DNA of 64,000 bases from Saprospiraceae bacterium (GTDB lineage: Bacteria; Bacteroidota; Bacteroidia; Chitinophagales; Saprospiraceae). Under the pieces are notes generated by a model, which saw nothing but the letters and a program-made list of their open reading frames with translations, searched no databases and was not told where the DNA came from. Each line of letters starts with the position of its first letter. Positions within the stretch are counted from its first letter, which is position 1. The stretch lies in assembly GCA_029263015.1 (NCBI GenBank), contig JAJCYI010000120.1, positions 1-64,000 of the forward strand, in the 5' to 3' direction. Made by a program: the position numbers and the translations under genes. This document shows, piece after piece, positions 11,131 through 16,612 of the stretch.

Positions 11131-12327
11131 ATGAAGAATGAATACCCCCTTTTTAGTGGTGCGCTTTTTCTGATAGTGTTCGTTTTTGCTTGTCAGCAAA
11201 CAGCTCCGCTTGCCCCTGAAGAAAACGAACTTTTGGATGGCCCAACAGAAGGGCTTAGCACCGAACAGCAAGGTCAGTTTTTAAAGGGCGACCAGGCATT
11301 TGCCGAAGTGTTTACCATTGAAAAAGGGCTGGGGCCAATTTTTGTGGCCAATCAATGTTCGAGTTGCCATGCTGGTGACGGCAAAGGGACACCATTTGTC
11401 AAGTTTACCCGGTTCGGTCAACCAGATACTTTGGGCAATCAATTTTTGAATCTCGGTGGTCCTCAACTCCAGCATAAAGCTATTCCTGGCTACCAACCAG
11501 AGCAACTCCCTGCTGGCGCCACTTTTACTGAATTGGTTGCGCCCGCAGTTACTGGGCTTGGTTTCTTGGACGCCGTCAGCGATGCCGACCTTATTGAACT
11601 TTCCGATCCTGACGATGCAAATGGGGACGGCATCAGCGGTCGACCACATTGGAACAACATCCCAGATTATGTCACACTCAGGCCAAATACCATTTCAAAA
11701 AACGGCATGTATATTACACGGTTTGGAAAAAAAGGTGGTGCTTATGATCTGCTGCACCAAACTTCCGGTGCATACAATCAGGATATGGGGATTACCTCTG
11801 ATTTTGAACCTGTCGACCCTTATAGCAGGTTGGAAACTGACCCAGAAGTAAGCATTCAAACGGTTCAGGATGTGGTATTTTATCTGAAGACTTTAAAGGC
11901 TCCTATTCCCCGCAACCAGGACGATCCAGATGTGATAAGTGGAGATCTTATTTTTTCACAAATAAAATGTGCTTCCTGCCATACGCCAACTTTGAAAACT
12001 GGATTCTCACCTATTGATCCTTTGTCTAATAAAGAATTCCATCCTTTTTCAGATTTGTTATTGCACGATATGGGAACGGATTTAGATGATGGCTACACAG
12101 AAGGATTTGCCTTGACTGCTGAGTGGAAGACCCCTCCACTTTGGGGGCTTGGTCTGTCAAAAGATGCACAAGGTGGAAGCTATTTCTTGCTGCACGATGG
12201 TCGTGCCACGAGCATCGAAGAGGCCATCCTGCTGCATGGCGGTGAAGCTGAACAATCAAAAACCAATTATGCCGAGCTATCGGAAACAGAGAAGCAGCAG
12301 CTCATTAAATTTTTGGGATCGCTATAA
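11131..12327 (+). CDS. Di-haem cytochrome oxidoreductase-like lipoprotein (DHOR / DUF1111 family)
   Basis: This is a 398-residue lipoprotein with lipobox FVFAC (Cys21). Two CxxCH haem sites are present, CSSCH at residues 76-80 and CASCH at 280-284, with the family features FVKFTRFGQPD between them and HDMGTDL near 310. It belongs to the family annotated as di-haem or thiol oxidoreductase (DUF1111). The exact reaction is not settled for most members. The stop codon is three bases from the Rieske gene start, so the two are co-transcribed and probably translationally coupled. Anchoring in the envelope and partnership with a Rieske protein suggest a redox chain outside the cytoplasmic membrane (inference). 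Confidence 0.85.
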   Translation: MKNEYPLFSGALFLIVFVFACQQTAPLAPEENELLDGPTEGLSTEQQGQFLKGDQAFAEVFTIEKGLGPIFVANQCSSCHAGDGKGTPFVKFTRFGQPDTLGNQFLNLGGPQLQHKAIPGYQPEQLPAGATFTELVAPAVTGLGFLDAVSDADLIELSDPDDANGDGISGRPHWNNIPDYVTLRPNTISKNGMYITRFGKKGGAYDLLHQTSGAYNQDMGITSDFEPVDPYSRLETDPEVSIQTVQDVVFYLKTLKAPIPRNQDDPDVISGDLIFSQIKCASCHTPTLKTGFSPIDPLSNKEFHPFSDLLLHDMGTDLDDGYTEGFALTAEWKTPPLWGLGLSKDAQGGSYFLLHDGRATSIEEAILLHGGEAEQSKTNYAELSETEKQQLIKFLGSL

Positions 12328-12330
12328 AAA

Positions 12331-12771
12331 ATGGAACGCAAAAAATTCATAAAAACCTGCTGTTATTCTATTCTCAGTTTTCCATTTATGGCCTCGGTTT
12401 TCCAGTCGTGCGGGGGCATTTATTATGCAACCGCCAGCCACGGTACAAATATGTTGACCGTTGCTAAATCCGAGTTTTTGGAAATAAAAAAAGACAAAAA
12501 AACAAACCGCGATTTTGTTTTGATAAAAATGGAAAATGGCGAATTTCCCATTTGCTTGCATAAAATAAAAGAAGATAATTATTCTGCCTCCTTGCTCAGG
12601 TGTACGCACCGCGGATGCGAGTTAAATGTCGGCGGCGGCATTTATAGTTGCCCATGTCATGGCAGCGAATTTTCAATTTCCGGGAAAGTATTGCAAGGCC
12701 CTGCGGATAGGGATTTACTAACTTTTAGAACAGATTCAGACAATGAAAACATTTATATCTATTTTTCCTAA
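12331..12771 (+). CDS. Rieske [2Fe-2S] lipoprotein
   Basis: This is a 146-residue small Rieske protein. A signal sequence ends at a lipobox (VFQSC, Cys27). The cluster ligands are visible: CTH (Cys91, His93) in CTHRGC, and CPCH (Cys107, His110) in YSCPCHGSEF. The fold ends with GPADRDL, equivalent to the Pro loop region. It is not fused to a membrane anchor or an oxygenase domain, so it is likely a stand-alone electron carrier. It sits between the di-haem oxidoreductase (3-base gap) and a porin whose start overlaps its 3' end by 29 bases. This tight coupling argues that the three proteins function together. Confidence 0.92.
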   Translation: MERKKFIKTCCYSILSFPFMASVFQSCGGIYYATASHGTNMLTVAKSEFLEIKKDKKTNRDFVLIKMENGEFPICLHKIKEDNYSASLLRCTHRGCELNVGGGIYSCPCHGSEFSISGKVLQGPADRDLLTFRTDSDNENIYIYFS

Positions 12772-13993
12772 GCAATTGATTTTAGGTTTTTTATTGTTAG
12801 CGATTACGGGAGAATTACATTCACAAGTGATCGATTCTGGCATCACTCGAACCCCCGTCGATACTTCCAAGTCAATGTTGAATATGGATGCCGTTTACAA
12901 CCGGCCTTTTTTATCGGGAGCTAAAATGCCCGTTGCGGTAGGAGGTTACCTAGAAGCCAACTCCATTCATAGCACAGAGGACGGAGTAAGCGAAGGGTTG
13001 TCTTTTCAGGCACGTAGGATGACGATATTTATGTCGGCTTCTATTGCCAAAAGAATTAAATTCTTGACGGAAATAGAATATGAGGATGGCACAAAAGAAA
13101 TCGGAATTGAGTTTGCGGCCATGGATGTTGCCTTGCACCCTGTGTTCAATTTCCGGGGTGGGATTATTATGAATCCCATCGGCGCATTTAACCAAAATCA
13201 CGATGGCCCTAAATGGGAGTTTGTGGAGCGTCCTGATGTTGCTGCAAACCTGCTGCCCGCCACCTGGTCGAATGCTGGTTTTGGCTTGTATGGAAAAACA
13301 CATAAAGGCGACTGGGTATTGGGATATGAGGCTTATCTGACCAATGGATTCAACAACAACATTATCGATAATCAAGAAAATAAAACTTTCCTGCCAGCCG
13401 CGAAAGAAAACGAAGAACGATTTGAAGAGAGCAACAGTGGGAAGCCACTGATGACTGGGAAAATTGCCATTAAAAACCGGAATATTGGCGAAATAGGATT
13501 TTCCTATATGGGGGGCATTTACAATAAATTTGAGGAAGACGGCCTGGTGCTTGACCAGAAAAGAAGGATAGATGTTTTAGCCATTGACCTGAGCACAACG
13601 ATTAAAAAAACAGGCACCTATTTAGTTGGAGAAGTTGCGTTTATTTGGGTTGATGTACCAAGTACTTACACCCAACAATATGGCAATAAACAAAGAGGTG
13701 CCTATATTGATATTGTGCAACCTGTTTTTAAAAGGAAAATATTGGATTGGGAAAATGCAACCTTAAACCTCGCAGCCCGATTTGATTATGTGGACTGGAA
13801 TGTTGGAACATTTAATGAAAATAATGCTGACATTGGGGACGAATTATGGGCGATTTCTCCTGCCATCAGCTTTAGGCCAACCAGCCAATCTGTGTTTAGG
13901 ATGAATTATCGGTATCAATGGCAAAAAGATATTCTAAACAATCCGGCGGCAAAAACGGCAACGTGGCTTTTTGGATTTAGCACTTATTTTTAG
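12743..13993 (+). CDS. Outer-membrane beta-barrel porin-like protein
   Basis: This is a 416-residue exported protein, signal peptide about 1-27 (...GELHSQ). The mature part is made of alternating amphipathic strands (for example FQARRMTIFMSASIAKRIKF, FNFRGGIIMNPIGAFNQNH) and ends in an aromatic residue (FGFSTYF), as outer-membrane barrels do. It resembles the phosphate-selective porin O/P and related families; the solute is unknown. The start codon lies inside the end of the Rieske gene, so translation is coupled. It may give a substrate access to the redox pair encoded upstream (inference). Confidence 0.75.
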   Translation: MKTFISIFPKQLILGFLLLAITGELHSQVIDSGITRTPVDTSKSMLNMDAVYNRPFLSGAKMPVAVGGYLEANSIHSTEDGVSEGLSFQARRMTIFMSASIAKRIKFLTEIEYEDGTKEIGIEFAAMDVALHPVFNFRGGIIMNPIGAFNQNHDGPKWEFVERPDVAANLLPATWSNAGFGLYGKTHKGDWVLGYEAYLTNGFNNNIIDNQENKTFLPAAKENEERFEESNSGKPLMTGKIAIKNRNIGEIGFSYMGGIYNKFEEDGLVLDQKRRIDVLAIDLSTTIKKTGTYLVGEVAFIWVDVPSTYTQQYGNKQRGAYIDIVQPVFKRKILDWENATLNLAARFDYVDWNVGTFNENNADIGDELWAISPAISFRPTSQSVFRMNYRYQWQKDILNNPAAKTATWLFGFSTYF

Positions 13994-14236: not shown

Positions 14237-16501
14237 ATGAATTCCTCTTGGATTTACACTGTGATTGCCAATGCTGGCCATCGATTCTTCCTTTTGGTTG
14301 TCTGTTCATTTTTTCTATTGCATATCAATCTAAATGCCCAAGGGCAACCACCCCTTCGATATGTTGGTTCTTCAACTATCGGCAACTTCATCGAAGATGC
14401 TAGGGTGGATTATGGTAAAAGTGGTTTTGACATAAATACCGAACCGGAAAGTGCAGGCGGTGAGCAGGCCATCCTCGAAGGTAGGGCCGACCTGGCCGGG
14501 GTAGCCAATGTGCCTTCCTCCGAGACACTGGGCAAGGGGGTGGTGAGCACCCTAGTCGGCTGGGATGCTATTGCGGTGATTGTACATGACTCAAACCCTG
14601 TTAAAAACTTGACACAGAGTCAGTTGAAAGGAATTTTTACTGGATCAATTACCAATTGGAATGAAGTTGGGGGACCAAACCTAAGCATCCAACCATTTAT
14701 TGTTAGTAATGAATCGGCAACCAGGAAAGTGTTCCGTTCCGTCATTTTGGGGCAATCTGATTATGCCGGGTGCGAGGTTGTGAATCCTGATGTTGAAATT
14801 CTCGAAAGGGTGAGGAACAATCCAGGAGCAATTGGCCACATCAGTTTTTCTTTTTTGGGGAATGAATCGCAAGTGAAAAAAATATCAGTAAACGGTCAAT
14901 CCCTTTCCCTGACCAATGCTGCCTATCCGATTACACGTCCGCTGTACCTGCTGTGGTGGCCGGGAAGGAGGGAAGTGTCCGATTTTGCTAGCTGGGTGCT
15001 TTCAACCGAGGGGCAGCGTATCGTGATGAAACGGTTCATCGGTGTGCGGGAAGCTTCGGCGAGTATCAATCAAAAAACGGGGACTTTGGTTGTATTTACA
15101 GAGACTTATCCAGTAGAGGATGGCGGCACATTTTATTATCCCCACAGACCTTACGAGGTGTTGACAACTGACCGGGAATTGGTTGCCAGGGTCTCCAATC
15201 ACTTGAGTATCAATGATGAAAGCCCAGCAAGGGTGCCCCTCAGCCCCGGCACTTATCTTATTCGGCCAGAGTCTGCCAGTGGAACTCAAAAAGAGTTTTT
15301 TGTAGCCATTGAACCGCAAAAATTGACAAAATTGAATGTTGGGAATATATTGAGAACAGATAGCCAAAGTGGCCTCCCTGCTGTAAATAACCATTGGGAT
15401 GAAGGTGATCGGATCGCTGCTGAACTGGCCCAGTTGGACAAGTTCAAGGCATTGCAGCCTTATGGTGATTTTCGTCTGCGTGCAGCACAGGATCTCGCCC
15501 CATCATCTGATCGGTTCAGGATGCGCTTTCGCTTGCGGGCAGGTTTTGGGGCAAAGGTGGCGCCCGGAATGAAAGTCGATTTCCGATTCATCTCATCCGA
15601 TAACCCAGATGATCCTAACTCCCCATATTCAGACTTCTCATCAGGTTTTAATAATGTCAATTTAGTTATTGACCGTGCGTACTTCCACTTGAACCCACAA
15701 AAGTTGAGCAACTTGAAACTGTGGTTGGGCAAATTTCCCAACCCGTTCACCAATTCGGGGGTTTATTCTGAATTGAGCTGGGATGCCGACCTTAACCCCG
15801 AAGGTGGAGCGGTCGCTTTTGACTTTCCTAATATTGGAAAGATGAACAAATTGGCACTGGTCAATGGAGTTTATTTACTTTCCCATATCAGGTCAGGTGC
15901 AGAAAAAACGGTGCTCAATGCCAGTCAGGCAACGTTAGGGATTCCTTTGTCAAAGAACTTCAACTTGACGGCTTCCAGTAGTTTTTATTATTTCAACAAT
16001 ATAAAAGGTAGGAATATAAGCACGACTGTTTTCGACAATAATGCAGGCAATGCTACTTTTGAAGAACTCCATGTTGGTGGCAGTGATACTACTTTTACCA
16101 CCCATTACACTTCTGATTTCCATACCCTTGATAATTTTCTCTTGCTCAATGTGAAATCCTTACCACATCTGTTGACGCTCAAGGGTCAGCTTTTCTACAA
16201 TTTTGGTGCAACCGATAAGAATACTGGCTATGCAGCTGGCTTCAGCTATGGCGACCTTAACAGGCCAGGGAACTGGCGCTTGTATTATCAATTCCAGCAC
16301 CTCCAACAAGATGCGGTGTTCTCTCCTTTTGTGCAGGATGATTTCCGCCGGCAGACCAATTTTACTGGCCAGGTGTTTGGCCTGGCTTATGCCTTTCACA
16401 AAAAAGTCTCGCTCCACGTCTGGGGGTTATTTGACTCAGCAGTTTCGGGTGGGGGTGAAAACCACTCGCGGTTTAGGTTGGATTTGAATGTAAAATTGTG
16501 A
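14237..16501 (+). CDS. PstS-like binding domain fused to a PEGA-like linker and a porin-like beta-barrel
   Basis: This is a 754-residue exported protein, signal peptide about 1-36 (...LNAQ). Residues about 38-275 are a periplasmic phosphate-binding (PBP-like, PstS/SphX-type) domain: RYVGSSTIGNFIEDA, LKGIFTGSITNWNEVGG, SNESATRKVFRSVIL. Residues about 283-370 are a short beta domain like PEGA (PLSPGTYLIRPESA). Residues about 400-754 are strand-rich and look like the putative porin family (Porin_5 type; DADLNPEGGAVAFDF, WLGKFPNPF). A soluble ligand-binding domain joined to an outer-membrane barrel would place a phosphate- or anion-sensing module at the outer membrane. There is no pstCAB nearby. 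The gene follows the DHOR-Rieske-porin operon by 243 bases. The domain order is read from sequence; the function is inference. Confidence 0.75.
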   Translation: MNSSWIYTVIANAGHRFFLLVVCSFFLLHINLNAQGQPPLRYVGSSTIGNFIEDARVDYGKSGFDINTEPESAGGEQAILEGRADLAGVANVPSSETLGKGVVSTLVGWDAIAVIVHDSNPVKNLTQSQLKGIFTGSITNWNEVGGPNLSIQPFIVSNESATRKVFRSVILGQSDYAGCEVVNPDVEILERVRNNPGAIGHISFSFLGNESQVKKISVNGQSLSLTNAAYPITRPLYLLWWPGRREVSDFASWVLSTEGQRIVMKRFIGVREASASINQKTGTLVVFTETYPVEDGGTFYYPHRPYEVLTTDRELVARVSNHLSINDESPARVPLSPGTYLIRPESASGTQKEFFVAIEPQKLTKLNVGNILRTDSQSGLPAVNNHWDEGDRIAAELAQLDKFKALQPYGDFRLRAAQDLAPSSDRFRMRFRLRAGFGAKVAPGMKVDFRFISSDNPDDPNSPYSDFSSGFNNVNLVIDRAYFHLNPQKLSNLKLWLGKFPNPFTNSGVYSELSWDADLNPEGGAVAFDFPNIGKMNKLALVNGVYLLSHIRSGAEKTVLNASQATLGIPLSKNFNLTASSSFYYFNNIKGRNISTTVFDNNAGNATFEELHVGGSDTTFTTHYTSDFHTLDNFLLLNVKSLPHLLTLKGQLFYNFGATDKNTGYAAGFSYGDLNRPGNWRLYYQFQHLQQDAVFSPFVQDDFRRQTNFTGQVFGLAYAFHKKVSLHVWGLFDSAVSGGGENHSRFRLDLNVKL

Positions 16502-16510
16502 TAACCATTG

Positions 16511-16612
16511 AGGCAGATTAAACTAATAAATTGGACATTTTGACGAGGTTACTTGCCTGCCGGTAGGCAAGTAACCTCGTCAAAATGTTTAATTTATTAG
16601 TTTAATCTGCCT
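16511..16612. repeat. 102-bp near-perfect palindrome related to family 1
   Basis: The 48-base arms (16511-16558 and 16565-16612) differ at only two positions and are joined by a six-base loop (GCCGGT). The arm motif GTAACCTCGTCAAAATGT is close to the outer arm of copies A and B (AACCTCGTCAAAAGTGT). The centre GCCTGCCGGTAGGC matches the small extra palindrome inside copy A. It starts ten bases after the preceding stop codon, so it can also act as a terminator. Its right edge is where the permease fragment at 16613 stops. Confidence 0.85.

Follow-up and report, generated by a model that had tools for sequence, protein, structure and literature searches.

A PstS-like binding domain fused to a Porin_5-type barrel in Saprospiraceae: a possible anion channel of the outer membrane with a built-in periplasmic trap

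The fused gene and its predicted folds

Exploring the first 64,000 nucleotides of contig JAJCYI010000120.1 (assembly GCA_029263015.1, Saprospiraceae bacterium; hereafter the window), we found a single open reading frame (ORF) on the forward strand that joins a PstS-like periplasmic binding protein (PBP) domain to a Porin_5-type beta-barrel. Binding proteins are known to work with permeases of the inner membrane. The frame runs from ATG to stop at positions 14237-16501, encodes 754 residues and carries 0 internal stops. Its parts are as follows.

14237-16501, + strand: fused gene, 754 residues; signal peptide, PstS-like domain, beta-sandwich linker and Porin_5 barrel (Pfam, AlphaFold2)
14237-14341, + strand: N-terminal signal peptide, residues about 1-35 (by eye, without a lipobox; a helix at 4-33 in the model)
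14345-15046, + strand: PstS-like (PBP_like_2) domain, residues 37-270 (Pfam; PDB sequence matches; VIA-align Z 29.7 against 4q8r)
15080-15337, + strand: linker domain, prealbumin/CnaB-like, residues 282-367, with a conserved YYPHxPYE-type motif (model, fold comparison)
15401-15445, + strand: helix preceding the barrel, residues 389-403 (AlphaFold2 model)
15452-16495, + strand: Porin_5-type beta-barrel of about 16 strands, residues 406-753 (Pfam, model, structure comparison)

Both ends of the protein passed their Pfam gathering cut-offs: PBP_like_2 (PF12849) at residues 35-258 (E 5e-27, 95.8 bits against a cut-off of 27) and Porin_5 (PF16930), a family labelled in Pfam as 'putative porin' only, in two stretches, the best at 423-601 (E 7e-26, 91.3 bits against a cut-off of 22). 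The same scan at E 1 gave no match to Porin_O_P (PF07396) and none to SLH. The top PDB sequence matches were PstS-type proteins (4q8r, E 2.6e-24). An AlphaFold2 model of the full-length protein, built from 38 aligned rows with a mean predicted local distance difference test score (pLDDT) of 85.8, shows a two-lobed binding-protein fold, after which come a small beta-domain, one helix and, over residues 406-753, 18 strand segments; two short segments (608-623) are read as a loop hairpin, giving a barrel of about 16 strands. Structure comparison with VIA-align matched the binding domain to 4q8r over 229 residues at 30% identity, and the barrel to OmpM1 (8bym, Z 26.9, 305 residues aligned), OprO (Z 21.6) and OprP (Z 20.8). 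Pfam, AlphaFold2 and structure comparison are concordant, and the fusion is a genuine single gene. The first-pass annotation, made from the letters alone, had read a binding domain, a linker and a barrel in one frame; this order was borne out, as was its reading of the C-terminal half as a beta-barrel (Z 20-27 to porins).

It had also called the linker PEGA-like, which we rejected: Pfam gave the linker no family, its sole match being a chance one to another family at E 0.26, and fold matches were weak. The domain folded on its own (pLDDT 83.1) bears a weak likeness to CnaB/prealbumin-like sandwiches (best Z 8.2), and a Foldseek search at E 0.001 returned zero matches.

Copies, neighbours and inner-membrane partners

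A search for this domain order in Bacteroidota had been proposed with the first-pass annotation; our scans gave nine further copies, eight of them intact, bringing the total to ten copies and nine intact ones with the window's included. Given the nine other copies, the fusion is not an artefact of a single assembly; it is rare, yet not the accident of one genome or assembly. Among 60 genomes of relatives, that of the window included, long matches occurred in 4 (the window genome, G003, G005 and G045). Scanning a contig collection with a linker-barrel alignment gave 194 pattern matches, of which 113 were confirmed; 80 of these 113 stretches were kept, making 79 loci. Fusions lie at 7 of the 79 (L071, L072, L073, L074, L084, L085 and L101), all from Saprospiraceae, Saprospirales or Chitinophagales; L071, L072, L073, L084 and L101 coincide with the copies in G003, G005, G511, G648 and G045, respectively. 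In the window's order (396 genomes, E 1e-30) at least 46 genomes matched, at least 7 of them, the window's included, across essentially the whole model, at least 16 with the barrel part alone and at least 23 with the binding domain alone. In the phylum (395 genomes, E 0.001) at least 210 matched, and among the matches listed the window's own was the only one of full length; both scans scored up to two candidates per genome, so that their counts are lower bounds. Pairwise identity among the copies goes down to 34%, with G003 and G005 at 83%. The copy in G482 (L186, 514-2721) matches the full model and carries two in-frame TAG codons. Its identity to the G005 copy is 96% over 552 residues, and two genes beside it match neighbours in G005 at 93%, although its genome is placed in another family. 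It may be a decayed gene, a sequencing error or a misplaced contig.

To compare the surroundings, ORFs of at least 80 residues beside the ten copies were matched by BLASTP at E 1e-5. Nine matching pairs were found in total and none involved the window, where the ORFs up to about 9 kb from the fusion match no neighbour of the nine other copies. Four ORFs matched between G005 and G482 and one between G003 and G005 (88% identity), which is no surprise between near relatives; the four remaining pairs, at 25-36% identity between distant loci (G005-G511, G045-L074, G045-G705 and G705-L074), are read as probable members of common families lying close by chance.

The fusion had been proposed to belong to one envelope system with the genes upstream of it. 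At window positions 11131-13993 a DHOR-type di-haem protein, a Rieske protein and a 416-residue porin-like protein follow one another in what looks like a separate operon; the porin-like label is that of the first-pass annotation, and the protein has no Pfam match. The proposed link was dropped, with no shared neighbours and with the two porins dissimilar by BLASTP (best E 2.6). Directly 3' of the fused gene, at 16511-16612, lies a near-perfect palindrome of two 51-nucleotide arms, 94% complementary and without spacer. A search for its core with up to 3 mismatches allowed gave a single site in the window; the palindrome is a candidate terminator or mobile palindromic element.

Membership in a Pst operon was rejected as well. 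No Pst gene is among the neighbours of the window fusion that were scanned or listed, none was recognised beside the other fusion copies opened, and PstC, where present, is on another contig. A TonB-type system was likewise set aside, no such genes being recognised by eye near the fusions; PBP-porin pairs with such a system presumably occur in Vibrio, and a literature search judged by titles returned none.

The window genome is 100% complete with 1.59% contamination, and its one PBP_like_2 match at E 0.001 and its one Porin_5 gene are both the fused gene. A search of it for PstC gave nothing over the cut-off (best 62.6 against 196.45 bits); it has one PHO4-type carrier over the cut-off and no Na_Pi_cotrans match. 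In G003, G005 and G045 the Pst genes, recognised by eye beside the PstC model match, lie together on a contig apart from the fusion, and the operon of G003 (L150) includes a Porin_O_P porin (185.4 bits). Given that PstC is over the cut-off in only 4 of the 8 fusion genomes tested, the other 4 having no match above it, and lies away from the fusion, we concluded that the fusion is independent of the Pst permease.

One capture module, its ligand site and two barrels

In Planctomycetota the same parts are separate genes. Metagenome-assembled genomes of this phylum carry, as adjacent genes, a first binding protein (PBP1), a second one with the linker domain (PBP2) and a barrel (L076 and L097; L097 is cut inside the barrel, and another locus, L077, is cut upstream). 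The barrel start overlaps the stop of the PBP2-linker gene by 4 nucleotides in L076, L077 and L097, and by 1 nucleotide in G1142/L209, where the stretch read holds no PBP1. Given these four loci with overlapping separate genes, we concluded that the fusion mirrors an operon, and the neighbouring genes in relatives suggest that the two halves work jointly as one uptake device. A scan of 392 Planctomycetota genomes with a PBP-linker model gave at least 5 matches at E 1e-45 or better, with up to five candidates scored per genome and two of the five matches (G791 and G792) having supplied query rows. The matches in G791, G792 and G1142 include the linker; those in G925 and G856 cover just the binding domain, and no barrel was found within the 16 kb opened at either of these two places. 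By eye, the Planctomycetota proteins have lipobox-like cysteines and the fusions have none. G792 also holds the linker domain alone, as a lipoprotein-like frame of 163 residues (L205, 1309-1797). Its neighbours, named by eye, are an RND-like fragment and two ORFs, one binding-protein-like and one sensor-like.

In a tree of 34 chosen binding-domain rows, the 8 fusions and 5 Planctomycetota proteins form one clade (100/100) whose long stem sets it off from 21 PstS-type rows, and the fusions form one group within it (94/96); no Pst operon was counted for two PstS-type rows, L113, which is in the tree, and L121. The barrel tree, of the 80 of 82 rows with at least 250 residues (one of three Planctomycetota operon barrels being dropped), puts the fused barrels in two places, the window with L071-L074 in one and L084, L085 and L101 in the other, alongside barrels of Bacteroidota, KSB1 and Calditrichota that stand alone. 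Forcing the 8 fused barrels into one clade, on 32 chosen rows, lowered the log-likelihood by 102 and was rejected (approximately unbiased test, p 4e-53). A single lineage of fusions with one barrel is not upheld by this test and the barrel tree. Given one clade of binding domains and two barrel subtypes, we concluded that one capture module was joined to, or exchanged, two kinds of barrel. That the binding domains form one clade while the fused barrels fall in two places points to selection for the pairing; together with the overlapping Planctomycetota genes it supports the first-pass suggestion that binding domain and pore act as one unit. The coupling can apparently also be lost: at L136 (5809-7134; the same place as L189, 7260-8585) a Porin_5 barrel of the second subtype keeps about 43 N-terminal residues of the binding domain and resembles a fusion from which the capture domain has gone.

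The residues on which ligand binding and anion passage would depend are listed here, with the SAR11 PstS correspondences discussed below.

14369-14377, + strand: Ser45-Ser46-Thr47, ligand loop 1, read as SAR11 Ser32-Ser33-Thr34; invariant in 8 fusions
14450-14464, + strand: Ser72 (read as the SAR11 Thr61 place) to Glu76, motif SxGGE (alignment)
14504-14506, + strand: Ala90, read as the SAR11 Ser83 place; side-chain contact lost (alignment)
14702-14704, + strand: Val156 at the place of the ligand Arg125 of Clostridium perfringens PstS; Arg lost (alignment)
14714-14722, + strand: Ser160-Ala161-Thr162, ligand loop 3 (alignment)
15512-15538, + strand: arginine ladder R426/R428/R430/R432/R434, barrel strand 2 (alignment)

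According to the part of PMC12421899 consulted, Arg125 of C. perfringens PstS contacts the ligand, whereas SAR11 PstS, with Pro in the corresponding position, binds phosphate nonetheless and, weakly, organic phosphates as well; its contacts are Ser32, Ser33, Thr34, Thr61, Ser83, Gly174 (backbone) and Thr175. Those of PhoX include Asp80 and Arg159 (PMC5439949, in part). We read S45, S46, T47, S72, A90, A161 and T162 of the fusion as the SAR11 contacts, a mapping made via L150/L151, which have the same Pro and Ser-Gly-Thr spacing, with the SAR11 sequence itself unaligned. So mapped, 6 of the 7 positions look compatible, and only A90 cannot serve by its side chain. S45, S46, T47, S72, A90, S160, A161 and T162 do not vary among 8 fusions. 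Alignment gives Arg in 8 and Pro in 3 of 11 PstS-type rows at the Arg125 place. On the PstS model TIGR02136 the fusion scored 122.1 bits against a cut-off of 206.6 and failed; L103, the PstS of a Pst operon, reached 269.3 bits in the same search. Because the TIGR02136 cut-off is missed and the equivalent of Arg125 is lost, the binding domain is best described as PstS-like, not PstS. The phosphate-binding label of the first-pass annotation therefore held for the PBP_like_2/PstS fold and failed at the PstS cut-off, and the ligand contacts whose lack it had named as a refutation are present in part. The ligand may be phosphate, a related oxyanion or a phosphorus ester.

The barrel family brings a phosphate context of its own. 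At least two of PstC, PstA, PstB and PhoU, tagged by phmmer with single seed sequences, lie near the barrel at 25 of the 79 loci; 14 show the order barrel-PstS-PstC-PstA-PstB, and 5 of those 14 (L103, L105, L114, L122 and L145) have PhoB-PhoR before and PhoU after as well. All 25 Pst-linked barrels are separated from the fused ones by a 100/99 branch; the Pst context is therefore that of the wider family, and the link of the fusion to phosphate is indirect. At L129-L132, from Pseudomonas oryzihabitans-type genomes, a Porin_5-type barrel adjoins PstC/PstA/PstB matches.

An arginine ladder is described as a basis of anion selectivity in OprP (PMC5877670, in part). In barrel strand 2, Arg or Lys occupies 4 or 5 of five alternate positions in 8/8 fusions, 23/25 Pst-linked and 48/49 other barrels, and none of the 82 rows has Arg or Lys at any of the four interleaved positions. 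From this alternation, and not from coordinates, the ladder arginines probably face the pore.

Proposed working, alternatives and known systems

We tentatively favour the reading that the fusion is an anion channel of the outer membrane that carries a trap of its own in the periplasm. The fusion itself, the predicted folds, the conserved arginines and the overlapping Planctomycetota genes are directly supported. From them we infer the ligand, the periplasmic site of the binding domain, the trap mechanism and the direction of transport. The Porin_5 barrel would form an arginine-lined pore for phosphate, a related oxyanion or a phosphorus ester, and the small beta-domain would hold the PstS-fold domain below its periplasmic mouth. 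There the domain would capture the anion at the pore exit and lower its free concentration; the anion would then pass to an available inner-membrane carrier, Pst in some hosts and perhaps the PHO4-type carrier in that of the window. The placement below the pore follows the logic of Cyc2, whose authors suggest that an N-terminal domain on a 16-strand porin is periplasmic, as porins typically keep both ends there (PMC8406198, in part); by this analogy the PstS-like domain would be periplasmic too. A more specific version, in which the tethered domain closes on its ligand and makes passive uptake effectively one-way, without TonB or a dedicated ABC permease, we consider doubtful. Titles and abstract openings in the literature searched, a scope outside of which lie subscription journals and preprints, describe no such fusion and no such class of transporter. 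If the reading is true, a binding protein on an outer-membrane pore would be a new route to selective or directional passive uptake, and would suggest a ligand class for Porin_5 barrels.

Several observations weigh against this reading. Distant fusion copies share no neighbour gene across the ten loci compared by BLASTP, and half of the fusion genomes tested are without PstC over the cut-off. The canonical PstS Arg is found in 0 of 13 rows of the fusion/Planctomycetota clade, the PstS model cut-off is missed, and the SAR11 contacts were carried over through intermediaries. The Pst-linked barrels all lie across a strong branch, and the pore-facing position of the arginines comes from their alternation. 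The predicted template modelling score (pTM) of 0.51 makes the placement of the domains relative to one another uncertain. Finally, efflux genes, not Pst genes, flank 3 of 3 readable Planctomycetota loci, the fourth (G793/L077) being cut upstream.

The best surviving alternative is a structural role, in which the PstS-fold and beta-domains bind no ligand and form a periplasmic stalk for assembly or tethering, like the N-terminus of OmpM, on an ordinary anion porin. The closest barrel structure is that of OmpM1, itself a porin with an N-terminal periplasmic stalk (PMC10628300, in part), the Arg and Ser contacts are lost, and the barrel can do without the binding domain, as seen from the remnant at L136 and from the at least 16 of 396 order genomes with the barrel part alone. 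A spacer, however, would have no need to keep S45, S46, T47, S72, S160, A161 and T162 unchanged across 8 fusions, and in Planctomycetota the binding protein is a separate gene whose product has, by eye, a lipobox-like start. We regard this role as rather unlikely.

Given the efflux neighbours in Planctomycetota, a role in sensing or detoxification also has to be weighed: the PstS-fold domain would bind a toxic or signalling oxyanion and report to, or work beside, an export pump, with the barrel as the entry or exit pore. The flank of G791 holds ACR_tran and HlyD-type genes, and genes downstream there encode a histidine kinase and a response regulator of the sigma-54 type; that of G792 holds OEP, HlyD-type and ACR_tran genes, and its linker-only frame lies near another fragment, named by eye as RND-like; a divergent OEP gene lies near the contig end in G1142. 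In G648 a LytTR response regulator and a His_kinase protein adjoin the fusion itself. Three loci are few, however, and RND genes are common; among the ORFs listed and the eight proteins scanned beside the window fusion there is no RND, OEP or kinase gene, and its neighbours have no BLASTP match beside the nine other copies. This role we judge unlikely. Least probable of all is a chance fusion, in which the stop between two neighbouring genes was lost and the uncoupled halves work independently: it would suit the rarity (at least 7 of 396 order genomes at E 1e-30, and one full-length match, the window's, among those listed for 395 phylum genomes), but nine intact copies with two barrel subtypes keep the pairing, and another phylum shows its counterpart in overlapping genes.

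The anion channel with a tethered trap, as we favour it, shares features with several known systems. With PstS (ptsS_2; C. perfringens 4Q8R/4GD5) the binding domain has in common the fold and the Ser/Thr ligand loops; it differs in its attached barrel, in having no adjoining permease, in the lost equivalent of Arg125, in failing TIGR02136 and in forming a clade of its own. In SAR11 PstS (9JWY, Z 23.3) the ligand Arg is missing too, and Ser-Ser-Thr forms a contact loop (PMC12421899, in part), but this protein is a soluble Pst component and has the contact Ser83 where the mapping puts Ala90. The Porin_5 barrels beside Pst genes, such as that of L103 (Planctomycetota, 160.9 bits), belong to the same Pfam family and carry the arginine ladder, whereas they are separate genes next to PstS on the far side of the 100/99 branch. 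OprP and OprO (Porin_O_P) resemble the fusion in barrel fold (Z 20.8-21.6) and, as described for OprP, in having an arginine ladder (PMC5877670, in part), the ladders not being aligned by position; they have no binding-protein domain, and the fusion has no Porin_O_P match. OmpM1 of Veillonella parvula is closest in barrel structure and also has an N-terminal periplasmic part (PMC10628300, in part), which is an SLH domain with a stalk, where the fusion has a binding protein and no SLH match. In Cyc2 too a functional domain sits at the N-terminus of a 16-strand porin, for which OprO/OprP served as models (PMC8406198, in part), but Cyc2 is a haem protein for iron oxidation without the binding-protein fold. 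Domain-bearing porins are already known, and we place the fusion among them.

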